A stretch of 64,000 bases of DNA from Desulfobacterales bacterium. Its GTDB lineage: Bacteria > Desulfobacterota > Desulfobacteria > Desulfobacterales > UBA11574. The DNA lies in contig JAJDND010000085.1 in NCBI GenBank assembly GCA_022340885.1, positions 41,442-105,441 of the forward strand, read 5' to 3'. Numbering within the stretch: the stretch's first letter is position 1; every line of letters begins with the position of its first letter. Of this stretch, positions 14,152-55,335 are shown piece after piece. The notes below the pieces were generated by a model. The model had not been told where the DNA came from. It did no database searches and saw nothing but the letters and a program-made list of their open reading frames with translations. Both the position numbers and the translations under genes were made by a program.

Positions 14152-14168
14152 TTTTTCAGAATGTAAAG
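14152..14168 (-). promoter_or_regulatory. Degenerate UAS TTTTTCA-GAA-TGTAAAG
   Basis: Same position class, 84 bp upstream; two mismatches in the dyad; TGTCG tag on promoter-proximal side. Confidence 0.5.
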
Positions 14169-17398: not shown

Positions 17399-17514
17399 GA
17401 TCCTTCCTTTCCCGGAGCAAGGGATAGATGCCGCCTATTATTCCAATAATCCAATAGAAAGAGACGACCGAATTTGAAATGCAAAGAGCCTTGATATCTG
17501 TTGAATAACAAGAA

Positions 17515-17529
17515 GCAATAACTATTCCA
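17515..17529 (-). promoter_or_regulatory. Sigma54-like element (one mismatch at -24)
   Basis: Minus strand TGGAATAGTTATTGC; upstream of 16460..17398. Confidence 0.65.
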
Positions 17530-17635
17530 GAAATAAAATTGTCGGCAGTAATAATATAGGGCGCTGTAATAATAGGAAATTGATCTTGTTGTGATGAAAT
17601 GTTGTGCGAGAATTGAAAAACAGCCTGTCGGATAT

Positions 17636-17652
17636 TTTTACAACGTGTAAAA
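17636..17652 (-). promoter_or_regulatory. UAS palindrome TTTTACA-ACG-TGTAAAA
   Basis: Perfect dyad, 106 bp upstream of 17515..17529. Confidence 0.85.
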
Positions 17653-17684
17653 GGAATTTTTAAAGTTCGGCAATGCGATCTTCT

Positions 17685-17701
17685 TTTTACAGTTTGTAAA
17701 A
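17685..17701 (+). promoter_or_regulatory. UAS palindrome TTTTACA-GTT-TGTAAAA (opposite orientation)
   Basis: Perfect dyad, 104 bp upstream of plus-strand promoter 17806..17820. Confidence 0.85.
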
Positions 17702-17805
17702 AAACCGGACAGATCCGGTAATCGGCTTAATTTTTTTTTTGGAATTTATGACAATATTAAAAGTTAATTCATATACATACATTATTCTCCCCTTTTATCT
17801 CCCCA

Positions 17806-17820
17806 TGGCATAATAGTTGC
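17806..17820 (+). promoter_or_regulatory. Sigma54 -24/-12 element
   Basis: TGGCATAATAGTTGC; upstream of 17916..18698. Confidence 0.85.
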
Positions 17821-17915
17821 AAAAATAGTCTTCAAATAGCTACGTGAACATGTAATTGCTTAGCCTTTTGAAAATCGATCGATTCAGACAAGGTTATGAT
17901 TCTAAAAGGAGGTAT

Positions 17916-18698
17916 ATGATGGCAATACAAATCGGAGGTGTAAAATACATTCCGGGAATGTACGAAAAAAAAAGGCCGACCGGCTCACAACTGGCGGATA
18001 AGTATTTTCGTGATATGGACCAAAAATGGATCGAACGGAAACAAAAAGAAAAAAGACCCGAAATTTTTCCGACAATCTGTTTTTCTCGAAAAATTGGTGT
18101 CGGCGCCTTGGAGATTGCAGATATTCTTGCAAAAAAGATTAACTATAGTGTGGTTGACAGGGGACTGCTGATGCACATCGCCCAGGAAGCGAAACTCAGC
18201 GAAAAAACTGTCTCCTATTTCGATGAACGGTATCCCGGTGTTTTGAATGAATTTGCCAAACTGCTCTTCGGTGAAAAATCGTTTATCAAAAGCGACTATA
18301 GCCGGCATCTGGCGAATGTCGTGCTTTCGATTGCCGGTTTGGAACCCACCATTTTTGTGGGCAGGGGAACCCATTTAATCCTTCCCCGGGACCGCGTGCT
18401 GGCTATCAGATGCATCTGTTCGGACGAGCACCGGACCGAGCGGTTGGCCAGAATCCTTAATGTCGGAAAAAAAGCCGCCGCCTCAAAACTGCCCCAGATC
18501 GATAAAGAACAAAGTGAATTTTTTAAAAAGGTTTTCAGCAAAAAAGAAGCCCTTCCATACGAGTTCGATATGGTGATCAATTGCGACTATATCAGCAATA
18601 CACAAGATGCGGCGGAAATCGTTGAACTGGCCTTTAAGAAAAAGTTTGCCGAAGAACTTTCATCTTCCGGCTGGACCGAAACAGCAAAGGCATCTTAG
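17916..18698 (+). CDS. Cytidylate kinase-like family protein
   Basis: FSRKIGVGALEIADILAKKINYSVVDRGLL...FVGRGTHLIL; start chosen at MMAIQIGG after aaaaggaggt. Confidence 0.7.
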   Translation: MMAIQIGGVKYIPGMYEKKRPTGSQLADKYFRDMDQKWIERKQKEKRPEIFPTICFSRKIGVGALEIADILAKKINYSVVDRGLLMHIAQEAKLSEKTVSYFDERYPGVLNEFAKLLFGEKSFIKSDYSRHLANVVLSIAGLEPTIFVGRGTHLILPRDRVLAIRCICSDEHRTERLARILNVGKKAAASKLPQIDKEQSEFFKKVFSKKEALPYEFDMVINCDYISNTQDAAEIVELAFKKKFAEELSSSGWTETAKAS

Positions 18699-18907: not shown

Positions 18908-18909
18908 AT

Positions 18910-19055
18910 AGAAGTGGTTTCAAAACCTTCAATCGGGTTTAATGTCAAGGCGGACTGAGACGGGAAACCGCAGGAATATCGTGAATATTTCGAGGATTGA
19001 ACGGCGCAGTCCAACACAGAGATTGAGCCCGAGGGGAGGTTTTGAAACCACTTCT
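18910..19055 (+). repeat. Structured hairpin repeat, AGAAGTGGTTTC type
   Basis: AGAAGTGGTTTCAAAACCT...AGGTTTTGAAACCACTTCT; core CCGCAGGAATATCGTGAATATTTCGAGGA. Confidence 0.85.
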
Positions 19056-22000
19056 AATTAGGGGGCAAAGCGCCTCCGGTATACACTTCCCCGAATTCTT
19101 CACTGAAAACCAAATGTTTGATTTGTTCAAGGTATTCCTCGTAGCGTGAGAGATAAAACGAAAGCGGCCGGGGAAAGTTGATTCCCAAGATGCCGTCGAT
19201 AAACATCTGGCTGATCTCACGGTGGCGCTGAAGCGTGAACTGCGAACTGACCAGAATATGGCGCTCATCTACCGAAAGCGTGCGCAAAAATTGCGAAAAA
19301 GCTACGCGGGACCGCGGCTGGTACATCCAGAAATACAGCATGTCCATGGCGTGGATCATAACGATTTTTTCCAGATCTCTAGCTTCTGCATTGGCTTTCC
19401 GATTCCCGTCAGAGGCGCACTCCAGGATTTTGAAAGACTCGACGTCCGGATAGAGCAGTTCCAATTGTGCATAAATGTCCAAAAGCTCTCTGAACTTGTT
19501 TTTATAATCACGCAAACGCATCCGGATATTCTTGTACCGGTCAGCTGTCCCTTCAATAAAACCGGCAACAAAATCCGAAGCGGCCTTGGATATAATCGCC
19601 GCCCACTTTTGCAGAATATCATTGACACCTGCTGTGTGAGACATGGTGAGGATGCCGCCGATACCGGCGTTTAATATTACAGCGACGGGAATGGACAGAA
19701 TGCTGCGAAAGAAGTTCCCATATACCGCCCCTCTGGGCAAACCGCGGAAAATGTTATGTCCGGACAAATAAATACCGTTGGCCAGCGCCATAAACGTATA
19801 CAAAAGGATCGGACTGGTTTCCGTCGTGATACCGAACCCCCGATCCAATATCACGGTTTTCACCACATAATCCAAAAGCGGTACGGAGAATCCGGTGAAA
19901 AGCAGGGAATCCGTGATCCTTGTCCAACTGACATAGTCATTCCAATTCAGAAGCGGCGAGCGGCGAAAACCCCCGCCGCCCAGAACAGATTGAAGTATGT
20001 TGCGCAGACCAGTAATTCCGAACCAGATAAAGGCCCCCAGATAAGCCAGCACCCACCAATCTTTGGTCAGGGCGAAGGTCAGAAAGGCCGGAATAAATCC
20101 GATCACGACCTTGAGGGCGTTTTTCAGCTTTGAGTTCAAATATATCCACTTCAGTCCCCGCCGCCTTTTCGGCGATTCCGGCGTTTTGAGATAGAGCCCG
20201 TTAACAATTTTCTTCTGAGCACCGCCCAGGGTTACGATATTGCCGGAGCGAACCATACGGGTCGAGGTCGCCTGAACTTGCCAGCCTTGTCGGCGCATGA
20301 CTTTCAATCGGTTGAAAACCGGAAGAATCCTTGCCAATCCGGACAGTATGTTGTCAAACGGCCCGGCGGATTCATGCGGAATATCAATTGTGTATTTGTA
20401 AGCATCGATTCTAATGGGAATGGTTTCACGAATATTTGTTCGGCAATCCAGAACGATTTGCCGTTGCGTCCGCCTCGGCAGCGTTTCCTTGATCGCCAGT
20501 CCCATTCCGTGAACCTTGGGAGAACGGCCTGTGGAATCGCTGCCGATCCTCGATTTAAGAGGCTTTCCGGCGTAGTAAGACCTTAATATATCGATATCGT
20601 AAAGTATCGCAATTAATTTGTCGATTTGTTGAGCATTGGCCGAAGTCCCCGGTTCCCGGAGATCTTCAATAATCTCACGAATGATTTGCTTCAGGTGAAT
20701 CGGGCTCCCGTCGTTGATCGCCTCCTGCAAACGACTGATTTCCGCAATTTGGGCGGTTTTGCCCGCGGCATAATCCTTTAGATTGAATATCTCGAGCCGG
20801 GTGATCATTCCCTGACAATCGTATAGCAACTCAACGACATCCCCGGCTTTCAAATCGGTTAAATTCAGCGTCACCCGGTACCCCGAATGGAGCTGAGCGA
20901 GCCGTCTCAAAATTTCAAATGGACTGAGTTGCAGCAATTCCGGGATGTCCGGACCATCATCCACCATCTGAGGATATCTGATTCCGGGATTTTTTTCAGG
21001 GGCCAGATATTCTTCGATGACGGATTCGATATCCAGCGTGTTCATGGACTCGATCCATTGGGTGATGGCATCCCGCCGCTCGGGACTTGCAGAGGCAAAT
21101 TCTTCCTTTAACCGGTCTGTCTCACCCTGCAACACTTTCAACATCCGGTCGTGGATGAATTTCGCCAGATGCAATCTCGATTTCTGTCCGATTCCCACAT
21201 ACGCTAAAAACTCTTTTTCATCAATGGGTGGCAGCTCGATCTCGTAAATCCGATTTATCTCCGGCCGGTGGCTTTCGTTAAATTTCTCAAAAAGCACCGA
21301 CACACATTCCTGCTGATAGGCCGACACCTTTCGGCCGGCCTCCATGATTTTCATGACGGCCGGTTCTGCTAAAAAGCATAAGAATGCCTGGGCATCGTTA
21401 AACCCGCGTGGAACCCATATCAATTGCGCGTATTTGTCCCGGAATCGCGCGTAAAACTCAATGCCGATTCGAATGTCGATTTTCAGGACTTTGGCGGCTT
21501 CGAGGAGTTCGGCCGCAAAGCGGGGTTCGATAAAATTATAATGAATCACCCGCAGGCGTTGGATGCCTTTTATCCATGCGTCCATGATAAGATGGGTGGA
21601 AGATTTGCGTCCCTTGGTGTTGACATCGTGGACATGATCGTCAAAGGCGATTTGATTCCAATCTTCGGGCATCTCCAATAGATGATAGCGCTTGAGCTGC
21701 CGCCGGATGATGCGCGGTTTTCCGGATGCCGCCATTCGGAAGTCATGGGCCAGTTGAAGCTGCTTGTGGTAATCGCCGTGAACGCGCACCAAATCCTTCA
21801 TGATTTGCAGTAACACCCTGGCGGTATTTTTCGGCATTGGGCCTTCGGCGGTGTCGATCACTTCATTGCGCAAAAGGCGCAATGCATTGATACGCTCATC
21901 AACCCCGCCGACTTCCAGAGAACTGAGCAGGTGGACCACCGCATAGGCAATCCGTAAACCCCGGGTTTCAATCATTTCTTTGATACCGTGGGAGTGGAAG

Positions 22001-42202: not shown

Positions 42203-42243
42203 CCTGTGAGCGGATGATCATCAATTTCAATATAAATATCGCC

Positions 42244-42258
42244 GCAAAAGACATGCCA
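42244..42258 (-). promoter_or_regulatory. Sigma54 -24/-12 element
   Basis: Minus strand TGGCATGTCTTTTGC; upstream of 41255..42202. Confidence 0.85.
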
Positions 42259-42297
42259 AAATCGACCGTTTATGGAAAGATGGACTAACACATTGAT

Positions 42298-42443
42298 TAG
42301 AAGCCATCTCAAAAATGTCTTTTGTCCCAATTTCTGCGTTGAGATCTCGTTTCAACTCCTCGAAATACTTCAGTATGTCTGCGGGGTGAAACTCGGTCCC
42401 GCCTCGAACTTGAACCAAAATCCTATTTTTGAGATGGCTTCTA
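42298..42443 (-). repeat. Structured hairpin repeat, AGAAGCCATCTC type
   Basis: TAGAAGCCATCTCAAAAAT...ATTTTTGAGATGGCTTCTA perfect 19 bp termini; minus-strand core CCGCAGACATACTGAAGTATTTCGAGGA. Confidence 0.9.
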
Positions 42444-42510
42444 GGTATTCTTTTTTTTCATGCCGATTAGATGTTTTAATTTGGATAAAAAGAGAAGGGG
42501 TGTCAATTTT

Positions 42511-42527
42511 TTTTACAAAATGTAAAA
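42511..42527 (-). promoter_or_regulatory. UAS palindrome TTTTACA-AAA-TGTAAAA
   Basis: Perfect dyad; separated from its promoter by 252 bp including the 146 bp repeat 42298..42443. Confidence 0.85.
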
Positions 42528-42730
42528 GTACAACGTGGGCTTCGCTCCGTCTGGAATGTTGGAATGATGGAATAGTGGAATATAGGGGAAAAATAAAAAC
42601 ATTGATTAAATGAGAGAGAATTCCTTAAACCCATCATTCCATTATTACAACATTCCCGCGGATATCGCAAACACAGATGGCGAAAAAAACTGATCAAAAC
42701 AATAAATTTTTAAGTTTTTGGGACGTTAAG

Positions 42731-44167
42731 TCAGGTTATGTCTTCTTTTACGGACGTGGTGAACTCAAGACCGAATTTTTCGATCTTGGAATGCAAGGTG
42801 GGTCTTGAAAGACCAAGGAGTTTTGCCGCTTGTGATCGATTCCCGCCGGTATAGTTGAGCGCCTCGCTGATAATGATATTGGCAAACCGCTCCATACAGT
42901 CTTCAAAGCGTTTTTCACCCGATGGCGACGCCAGTATTTTACGAACCCACTGGCGCATGGCCTCTTCACCTTTCTCGAAATTTATAAAATCGCAGCTACT
43001 ATTTTCCTGGATCGCCTGGGAGATGTCTTCTTTGCAAATGGCTGCCCCGCGGTTAAAAATTAAGGCCTTTTGGATCGTATTGCCCAGTTCGCGCACATTT
43101 CCTCTCCAGAGATTCGCGGCAAGAAAGGCTTTGGCTTTCTTGGTGATTCCCGGATTTTCCACCTTCGCTTCTTGTGAATACCGCGCCAGAAAAAAATCAG
43201 TCAGTGCAGGGATGTCTTCCACCCGGTCCTTTAAGGGCGGCAAAAAGATGGAAACCACTTTCAGACGGTAGTAGAGATCCTCACGAAACCGGCCATGGGC
43301 AATGGCGGATTCGAGGTCGCGATTGGTAGCGGCGATAATTCTTACATTTACGGGGATGGTACTCCTTCCTCCCAGTCGTTCGATACTCTTTTCCTGGAGC
43401 AACCGCAAGATTTTAGCCTGGATGCTCAGCGGCATATCGCCTATTTCGTCCAGAAAAACAGTTCCGTTGTTCGCCTGCTCGATTTTGCCGATGCGGCGAT
43501 GGGTTGCACCGGTAAATGCCCCTTTTTCATACCCGAACAACTCGCTTTCCAGAAGATTCTCGGGAATGGCCACACAGTTAATCACCAGAAACGGCCGGTC
43601 AGCCCTCCGGCTGTGCTGGTAAATGGCCCGGGCCACCAACTCCTTGCCGGTCCCGGATTCTCCTCGGATCAAAACCGTTGCTTCTGTTTCGGAAACCCGG
43701 CCGATGGCCTTGTATACCTCCTGCATGGCTTTGCTTCTTCCGATGATGGCATCACGAACGCTTCCCTGTAAAACCGGGTCCACATCCACCGGAGAACGCA
43801 TGAAACGGCTCGCTTCCAGGGCCTGTTTGATCACAACCAGTATTTCGGGAATATCAAAGGGTTTAAGAACATAATCGAATGCCCCCATCTTGGTGGCCTC
43901 GATAGCGGTCTCCGTGGTTCCGAATGCGGTCATGATGATCACCGGCAGTTTGGGTTCCATCTCGTGAATGGCCTGGAAGGTTTCGAACCCGTTCATTCCC
44001 GGCAAGCGCATGTCAAGGATGACCAGGTCCGGAACCGCTTCCCGGATGATTTTAAGACCGGCTTCGCCGGAAGCCGCGCATTTACAGCGGTAGCCCTCTT
44101 CGATCAAAAGTTTATTGAAACTTTTTCGAAGTTGGTCGTCATCGTCTATTATCAATATGTTGCTCAC
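42731..44167 (-). CDS. NtrC-family sigma54-dependent response regulator
   Basis: Receiver, AAA+ (GESGTGKELVARAIY, ESELFGYEKGAFTGA), Fis HTH (GGNRSQAAKLLGLSRPTLHSKIEKF). Confidence 0.95.
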   Translation of the reverse strand: MSNILIIDDDDQLRKSFNKLLIEEGYRCKCAASGEAGLKIIREAVPDLVILDMRLPGMNGFETFQAIHEMEPKLPVIIMTAFGTTETAIEATKMGAFDYVLKPFDIPEILVVIKQALEASRFMRSPVDVDPVLQGSVRDAIIGRSKAMQEVYKAIGRVSETEATVLIRGESGTGKELVARAIYQHSRRADRPFLVINCVAIPENLLESELFGYEKGAFTGATHRRIGKIEQANNGTVFLDEIGDMPLSIQAKILRLLQEKSIERLGGRSTIPVNVRIIAATNRDLESAIAHGRFREDLYYRLKVVSIFLPPLKDRVEDIPALTDFFLARYSQEAKVENPGITKKAKAFLAANLWRGNVRELGNTIQKALIFNRGAAICKEDISQAIQENSSCDFINFEKGEEAMRQWVRKILASPSGEKRFEDCMERFANIIISEALNYTGGNRSQAAKLLGLSRPTLHSKIEKFGLEFTTSVKEDIT

Positions 44168-45644
44168 GGTCTGGCTCCTCCGCCGGCAGTGTAATGATAA
44201 AGGTTGATCCGCTCCCTTCCTTTGATTCGATATCCAGTATTCCGCCGTGTTCTTCCACGATCCTGGCGGCGATGCTCAATCCGAGGCCCGTGCCTTCTTC
44301 CTTGGTCGTAAAAAATGGCTCCATAATTTTCGACTGTATGGTATCCGGAATACCGGGCCCGTTATCGCTGATCCGAATCACGGCCAATCTATCGCTTCCC
44401 CGCTCGATAAGGGTTTTTTCGTGAATGACGATCGCGCCCCCCCGACCCATGGCCTCACAGGCATTGATGATGATATTAATGATGACTTCCTTTAACTGTT
44501 CCGGGTCCAACTGGACCATTGGAAGCGGTTCTTTTCTTTGAATCTTGATAAAGACTTCGTAGGACGCCAAACGATGCTGCAAAAGCTGTATCGCCTGATC
44601 CACGACATCCGACGGTGAAACCGGCTGAAGTTTCAATCTGGGCGGTCTCGAGAACTCGAGGAAATTTTGCACAATGGTATCGATATGGCTGATTTCCTTT
44701 GAAATGACATCAAAGTCTTCTTTCTGACTGCTGTCAAGATCGAGACTCCTGCTCAGGGAAAATAGGCGCATCTTTACGGAAGTCAGCGGGTTTCGGATAC
44801 TGTGCGAGGTACCGGCCGCCAATTTCCCCACCAGGGCCAGTTTTTCAGACTGCAAAAGGTGCTCCCGGCTTTTTTCCAGTTCGGATTGGGTTTCAGTATA
44901 TGTTTTCTGCAAATCATGTACCCGCCGGCTGAGCGTCCTAACCTCGTCTCCTTCGTTTTGCGTGCCGTTATGGCGATCTGTTTCCAAAGCCAGCCTGCGT
45001 ATGGGATCAAGAATATCATGCAGCAATCGGAAAGCCAGTATGACACCCAAAAAAAGAATCATCAATACTGCCGATCCGGCTACAATTCTAAGCTTTCTAG
45101 CCTGATGAAGGCTTTGTTCTTTAACCGTTAACGTCTTTTTCCTAAAAAGCGTTTTGCAGTCTTCCGTATGCTTGAGAATATCAAAAAAGTATTCCCGCAC
45201 CTTTTCATGGAGTTTTATACCATTTTCCCGATCTCCGGACTTATAATAATTGACAACCTGATCTTTAACGGAGATGTATTTGTTGTATTCGGATCCTATG
45301 AGCTCGAGAACTTTTCTTTCTTCTGCTGTTGTGGCTAGAAGCTGAGTTTCTTCGAGTTTATTTTCAAAAATATGGCGGTATCTCTCCATCTGTGTAAGCC
45401 AGTCGGGATTCCCGTCCAACAGATAGTAGGAAGCAAATCCTTTCTGATTGGCCAGCGCAATTTCCATGGATTGGGCCGTCTGTAGCCCCACCATGTAGTT
45501 ATCGATGATCCGGGTCAGGAGTCCTTCCATCCGGTATGTGTACCCTACCATCACCAGCGCGCCCATGATCGTGATAACCAACAGGGCGAAAACATTTAAT
45601 AATATTCTGGATCGAAGACTTATCTTTCCCAATACATTCAGCAT
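44139..45644 (-). CDS. Sensor histidine kinase with HAMP, cognate to 42731..44167
   Basis: [56 protein letters not shown]; overlaps regulator. Confidence 0.9.
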   Translation of the reverse strand: MLNVLGKISLRSRILLNVFALLVITIMGALVMVGYTYRMEGLLTRIIDNYMVGLQTAQSMEIALANQKGFASYYLLDGNPDWLTQMERYRHIFENKLEETQLLATTAEERKVLELIGSEYNKYISVKDQVVNYYKSGDRENGIKLHEKVREYFFDILKHTEDCKTLFRKKTLTVKEQSLHQARKLRIVAGSAVLMILFLGVILAFRLLHDILDPIRRLALETDRHNGTQNEGDEVRTLSRRVHDLQKTYTETQSELEKSREHLLQSEKLALVGKLAAGTSHSIRNPLTSVKMRLFSLSRSLDLDSSQKEDFDVISKEISHIDTIVQNFLEFSRPPRLKLQPVSPSDVVDQAIQLLQHRLASYEVFIKIQRKEPLPMVQLDPEQLKEVIINIIINACEAMGRGGAIVIHEKTLIERGSDRLAVIRISDNGPGIPDTIQSKIMEPFFTTKEEGTGLGLSIAARIVEEHGGILDIESKEGSGSTFIITLPAEEPDREQHIDNRR

Positions 45645-45733: not shown

Positions 45734-45877
45734 AGAAGCTATCTCAAAAATAGGATTTTGGTTCAAGGTCAAGGCGGGGCCGAGGTTCAACCCGCAGGCA
45801 TACTCAAGTATTCCGAGGAGTTGAAACGAGGACCCAACACAGAGATTGGGGCAAAAGGCATTTTTGAGATAGCTTCT
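45734..45877 (+). repeat. Structured hairpin repeat, AGAAGCTATCTC type
   Basis: AGAAGCTATCTCAAAAAT...ATTTTTGAGATAGCTTCT perfect 18 bp termini; core CCGCAGGCATACTCAAGTATTCCGAGGA. Confidence 0.9.
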
Positions 45878-45985
45878 ACTTATAATGGATAAAATCTGCG
45901 CCGTCAATCCGCAACTCAACATGTTTGACCCTTCATCGGCTGAATAATTCTGTAAAATCGACACCCATGGCTGCAAAGGCCCTTT

Positions 45986-46129
45986 TGAAGTGGTTTCAAA
46001 ACCTACAATTGGGCTCAAGGTCAATGCGGACAGAAACGGCCAACCGCAGTATATCGGGAATATTTCGAGGATTGGATTTTCGGTCCAACACTGAGATTGA
46101 GCCCGAGAGGGGGTTTTAAAACCACTTCT
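45986..46129 (+). repeat. Structured hairpin repeat, AGAAGTGGTTTC type
   Basis: TGAAGTGGTTTCAAAACC...GGTTTTAAAACCACTTCT; core CCGCAGTATATCGGGAATATTTCGAGGA. Confidence 0.85.
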
Positions 46130-46133
46130 AACC

Positions 46134-54699: not shown

Positions 54700-55116
54700 C
54701 GTTTTTTTTTGCGAAACCGTTCAATAATGTTCTTTTTATGATATTTCGATCATCGAATCAGTCAAACCAATTGTTTCATTTTGTTTTACACCCAAATCAA
54801 TAACGTTTCAATATGTTTTTAGTATAACCCGAAAAATTTTAAAAGAACATTCGACAAAGGATGAGATTAGATAAAAATGATCTCTAAAAGAAATTCTACA
54901 CACCCCAGGATAGTGTTTCATATTGCAACACTCTGTCAGATAACATCCTGTAAAGATAGTGATATTTTTTTTGTGGCACCGTTAATGATTGAGGATGATA
55001 AAATATTGTATTTTAAACAAGTTATACGTGAATTTCAGAACATTTTTAATTGACATTGCATGGAATGTAATATAAATAGCATTTTTTGGTAAATTCATCT
55101 CCAACAATATATCCTT

Positions 55117-55262
55117 AGAAGTGGTTTAAAAACCTTCAATCGGGCTCAAGGTCAAGGCAAACTGTGATGGCCAACCGCAGGAATATCGGGAATATTTCGA
55201 GGATTGAACGTCACAGTTTAACACAGAGATTGAGACCGAGAGGAGGTTTTGAAACCACTTTT
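55117..55262 (+). repeat. Structured hairpin repeat, AGAAGTGGTTTC type
   Basis: AGAAGTGGTTTAAAAACCTTC...GAGGTTTTGAAACCACTT; core CCGCAGGAATATCGGGAATATTTCGAGGA. Confidence 0.85.
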
Positions 55263-55335
55263 AGAAATGCAATTTATATTCCTATCAGGTACCTAGATCC
55301 AATAAGAATTTCGCGGTCATATTCAGGAGGAGGAT

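Follow-up and report, generated by a model that had tools for sequence, protein, structure and literature searches.

Spacing of the promoter and UAS at the USP locus

Upstream of a USP-family gene in a Desulfobacterales genome, we observe a predicted sigma-54 (-24/-12) promoter and its palindromic UAS at the sites given in the initial annotation, with a measured gap of 252 bp, as stated there. This raises the question of how the pair came to be so far apart and whether an enhancer-binding protein could still reach the promoter. In the window (the whole stretch of 64,000 nucleotides analysed here), the remaining clean UAS-promoter gaps are 105, 109, 106, 104, 105, 104 and 107 bp, in agreement with the 104 to 109 bp given in the initial annotation for pairs elsewhere; one more pair, with a weak UAS at 14152 and a gap of 84 bp, falls outside that range. 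UAS-like sites are strongly enriched in the window (17 strand-matches versus a shuffled mean of 0.78).

The features of the locus are collected in Table 1. The promoter sequence is unchanged in four orthologous loci, and the reading frame of the USP gene, whose orthologs in genomes G003 and G004 show 75% and 74% identity, is open across its 315 codons. By its position next to the UAS, the NtrC-type regulator is a candidate activator that would bind there. A further inverted repeat (GGAATGTTGGAATGATGGAATAGTGG) occupies 42552-42656, between the UAS and the regulator gene, whereas in two relatives, Meg19_46_Bin_253 and S5133MH16, the UAS follows almost directly after the regulator gene.

Table 1. 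Features of the USP locus, in window coordinates
Feature	Position	Strand	Basis or remark
USP-family gene, 315 aa	41255..42202	-	3' of promoter; Pfam Usp E=1.7e-20
Sigma-54 (-24/-12) promoter TGGCATGTCTTTTGCG	42243..42258	-	predicted, sequence match; GG and GC elements present
IHF-like box AATCAATGTGTTA	42286..42298	-	predicted; perfect WATCAANNNNTTR match; 27 bp upstream of promoter
TA target copy, promoter side	42298..42299	.	TA-flank pattern of sampled copies
MITE-like element, 142 bp, inverted ends GAAGCCATCTCAAAAAT	42300..42441	.	palindromic along whole length
TA target copy, UAS side	42442..42443	.	TA-flank pattern of sampled copies
UAS TTTTACAAAATGTAAAA, palindrome TTTTACA-N3-TGTAAAA	42511..42527	.	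predicted; same sequence in three empty-site orthologs
NtrC-type response regulator (receiver, sigma-54 AAA+, Fis HTH)	42731..44167	-	domain matches
Histidine kinase	44139..45644	-	domain matches; regulator's probable partner

A UAS-promoter unit found across the order

Among 390 genomes of the order, 110 have the arrangement UAS-N(75-135)-promoter (reversed control 0). Among the 150 pairs listed, which include related genomes, the median gap is 106 bp and 92 gaps fall at 102-109 bp. Gaps of 215-275 bp are found for six pairs in the 390 genomes, with an inverted-repeat insert only in the pair from the window. We thus find a palindromic UAS at a fixed upstream distance, common to a regulon, as expected of a sigma-54 enhancer and its promoter. 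The other sites precede genes for USPs, CstA, an acyl-CoA-ligase-like protein, a cytidylate-kinase-like protein and a TauE-type exporter, a set suggestive of a starvation or stress regulon. Helical periodicity among the non-modal gaps is weak, confounded by relatedness, and gone when each gap length is counted once.

With respect to the UAS itself, many copies across the order carry on their promoter side (42498-42505 at the USP locus) an A-rich stretch and a TGACA-like motif; these may belong to the sequence that the regulator recognises. Elsewhere in the window, two UAS copies (17625-17712) lie between divergent promoters at 17514-17529 (-) and 17806-17821 (+), each of them at 104-106 bp from the nearer promoter and at 153-155 bp from the farther one.

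A third component is an IHF-like box. Of 71 regulon spacers, a set that includes a few duplicates, 42 have such a box with no more than two mismatches at a distance of 25-28 bp upstream from the promoter (control mean 3.4, maximum 9). At the USP locus, the 27-bp spacing between box and promoter is as in the orthologs. From its consensus sequence and its position between UAS and promoter, the unit is predicted to be an IHF-assisted sigma-54 promoter. IHF is required at the sigma-54 orp promoters of Desulfovibrio (PMC3897727), and in Desulfovibrio vulgaris the IHF sites likewise lie between the enhancer-binding site and the -24/-12 promoter, a short way upstream of the latter; the orp system differs in its regulator and genes, and in that IHF binding has been shown there, whereas it is predicted at the USP locus (PMC3897727). 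What we add here is the fixed-position IHF-like box and, for the USP locus, a clean comparison of filled and empty sites.

A MITE-like element occupies the gap

The gap at the USP locus holds a repeat that had initially been delimited as 146 bp (42298-42443). Its location between the two sites and its boundaries, to within a TA, are right, and its 19-nt inverted ends (42298-42316 and 42425-42443) are perfect; that interval, however, counts the target TA twice, so that the net insertion is 144 bp, made by a mobile unit of 142 bp. In the 45 copies sampled, the unit is exactly 142 bp long in 40 and has TA at both flanks in 33, with the direct repeat never longer and a flank preference of A-Y-TA-R-T. 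The genome carries at least 40 scored copies of the element, its end motif TAGAAGCYATCTCAAAA has 105 genome matches at ≤1 mismatch (reversed control 0), and 41 of 60 relatives have related copies, among them members of other families within the order. The element folds far better than shuffled sequences (z -5.8 as DNA, z -6.9 as RNA), and palindromy is a trait of the whole family, wherever copies sit.

At 142 bp, the unit leaves no room for a transposase gene and is non-autonomous. A transposon in genome G024, with ends at contig positions 17971 and 18811, has the same inverted ends and encodes an IS5-family transposase split across two frames; the genome analysed here keeps a relic transposase fragment that is 79% identical to that of G024 and stops at a similar end, and a search of this genome for an intact transposase found none. 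On this basis, we class the element as an IS5-type MITE: it is short, has terminal inverted repeats, occurs in many dispersed copies, duplicates its target site and has ends in common with an autonomous-type IS5-family element. It differs from IS5-family insertion sequences proper (NCBIfam NF033580), with which it has its inverted ends in common through the G024 element, in being without a transposase. The mobility proposed in the initial annotation is borne out by the number of copies, their TA flanks and the related IS5-family transposon.

The bacterial MITEs ERIC and Correia (reviewed in PMC10969869) are similarly short, non-coding, palindromic and dispersed in many copies, mostly near genes whose expression they can alter, but they differ in sequence and host group, whereas the ends of the 142-bp element match an IS5-family transposon; ERIC is named here as a likeness of kind. 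The papers searched contained no description of this MITE family or of MITEs in this bacterial group, an Rfam scan gave sub-threshold matches only, and no plasmid records with the repeat were found. A sigma-70 promoter brought by the element was examined and is not supported.

Since the draft genome comprises 228 contigs and contains dozens of repeat copies, reads from a copy elsewhere could in principle have been joined at the USP locus. We regard such an assembly artefact as next to negligible: the copy lies within a 105-kb contig, its TA junctions are exact, and it shows 14 differences over 142 positions from the nearest copy sampled. Its divergence from the genome consensus is 20 of 142 positions, a value from which no insertion age is derived.

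The window contains a second full copy of the MITE at 45734-45877, between a response regulator gene and the histidine kinase gene, where the intergenic DNA is too diverged for an empty-site comparison. Repeats of a second family, which have GAAGTGGTTTCAAAACC as their ends, are present at 18909-19056, 45982-46131 and 55116-55263; these ends resemble the GAAGCTGTTTCAAAACC ends of an IS5-family element in genome G025.

Orthologous loci without the repeat

Empty orthologous loci, which the initial annotation had proposed to look for, exist in three syntenic genomes with the order histidine kinase, NtrC-type regulator, UAS, promoter and USP gene, and all three have the family spacing. The gaps are 108 bp in BM005 (Desulfobacteraceae, same genus as the source), 107 bp in Meg19_46_Bin_253 and 108 bp in S5133MH16 (Desulfobacterales), the latter two being outside the genus. 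The adjoining regulator orthologs show 88%, 76% and 76% identity, and the UAS and promoter sequences are the same in all three genomes as at the filled site. In a fourth relative, 4_1_July_SF_Bin60, the promoter and IHF-like box are present without the repeat, and the contig ends inside the UAS at a shorter gap, for which reason this genome is left out of the empty-site evidence.

When the element and one TA are taken out of the window, the remaining gap is 108 bp, which aligns without indels to that of BM005 with 66 of 108 positions identical. The 106 bp that had been expected from removing 146 bp matches none of the three relatives' gap lengths and is corrected to 108 bp, the value of the same-genus ortholog. 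At the insertion point, the aligned bases of the relatives are not TA, so that either the TA target arose by substitution in the source lineage or an alignment shift blurs it. The insertion abuts the IHF-like box on its UAS-facing edge, with the promoter-side TA overlapping the box at its first base (the A, on the minus strand, of the insertion-point TA), and UAS, box and promoter are all spared. There is no support for the MITE being drawn to IHF boxes in general, with boxes at 3 of 90 flanks versus a shuffled mean of 3.1.

From the filled and empty sites, we infer that the element transposed into this locus. The 142-bp IS5-type MITE would have entered a TA within the 108-bp UAS-promoter gap, and duplication of the TA would have added a net 144 bp, giving the gap of 252 bp. 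Landing at the edge of the IHF-like box would have left the UAS and the 27-bp box-promoter module intact. This structural history is, at the level of sequence comparison, well supported. One genome pair cannot tell insertion from excision, and the long spacing could accordingly be ancestral, with the relatives having lost the element by precise excision; we consider this extremely unlikely, since three genomes, one of the same genus and two from outside it, are empty at 107-108 bp, several independent precise excisions would be required, and the wider family holds 104-109 bp.

BM005 also carries a different, 124-bp hairpin (PKTV01000521.1, L148:3635-3781; ends CCTCATTGAGCGAAAG) immediately before the UAS, with TTTTAC at both flanks. 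It looks as if this hairpin had inserted into the UAS, with the target duplication leaving a complete UAS on the promoter side.

Probable enhancer contact over the longer gap

Taken together, insertion of an IS5-type MITE at a TA and preserved looping over the longer gap form the joint best explanation, which we hold with good though not full confidence. The enhancer-binding protein would still contact the promoter through a loop in the longer DNA, bent by IHF, with an efficiency that is probably altered. That looping still works at 252 bp is the likeliest reading, given the intact sites and the tolerance known from elsewhere: Kazakov et al. describe four promoters in Desulfovibrio whose UAS is over 300 bp away (PMC4641369). 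In view of that work, the ability of sigma-54 enhancers to act over varying distances is established in general terms, and the USP case would illustrate this tolerance rather than reveal it (PMC4641369).

A close parallel in geometry is given by the Vibrio qrr enhancers, which likewise lie about 80-120 bp from a -24/-12 promoter, act by DNA looping and show natural length changes between relatives; those changes are of about 11 bp, whereas at the USP locus there is one mobile element of 144 bp net length (PMC4740811). From the Vibrio qrr work, length changes of whole helical turns are predicted to be tolerated (PMC4740811). With 10.5 bp per turn, 252 bp is 13.9-14.0 turns past the modal gap of 105-106 bp and so need not be out of phase, but the added 144 bp amount to 13.7 turns from the ancestral 108 bp, and the phase therefore neither clearly helps nor hurts.

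The insertion could also have uncoupled the enhancer from the promoter, leaving the sites as remnants and the USP gene weakly or differently expressed. The strong preference for 104-108 bp suggests that spacing matters and that a gap of 252 bp could lower activity; order-wide, there is a strong preference for gaps near 106 bp, long ones are rare, and 144 bp added to 108 is not a whole number of turns. On the other hand, the UAS, the IHF-like box and the promoter are without decay and the 315-codon gene is open, although a recent insertion would look alike, and other sigma-54 systems function over longer distances (PMC4641369). On balance, we consider uncoupling rather unlikely, and looping across the inserted MITE is the reading we retain.

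The strong folding of the element relative to shuffled sequences invites a functional reading of the hairpin itself, as had been suggested initially, in which cruciform extrusion or a DNA bend restores the effective UAS-promoter distance to about 108 bp. Such a role is highly improbable, as palindromy is family-wide and hence explained without reference to the USP site, and an imperfect palindrome of 142 bp, weak at its centre, would be kinetically unfavourable to extrude. A related view, in which the palindromic element serves as an architectural insert (by extrusion, or by its own bend beside the IHF box) that preserves enhancer contact across 252 bp, which a random insert of 144 bp would not do, is very unlikely as well.

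Preserved looping over an inserted IS5-type MITE is thus our preferred account of the locus. With one filled and three empty sites of a sigma-54 loop that is otherwise held near 106 bp, the cost of an added 144 bp would be directly measurable. The comparison also brings out a predicted three-part control unit of UAS, IHF-like box and promoter across the order, and it points to an IS5-linked family of MITEs, present in high copy number, by which such control regions are reshaped.
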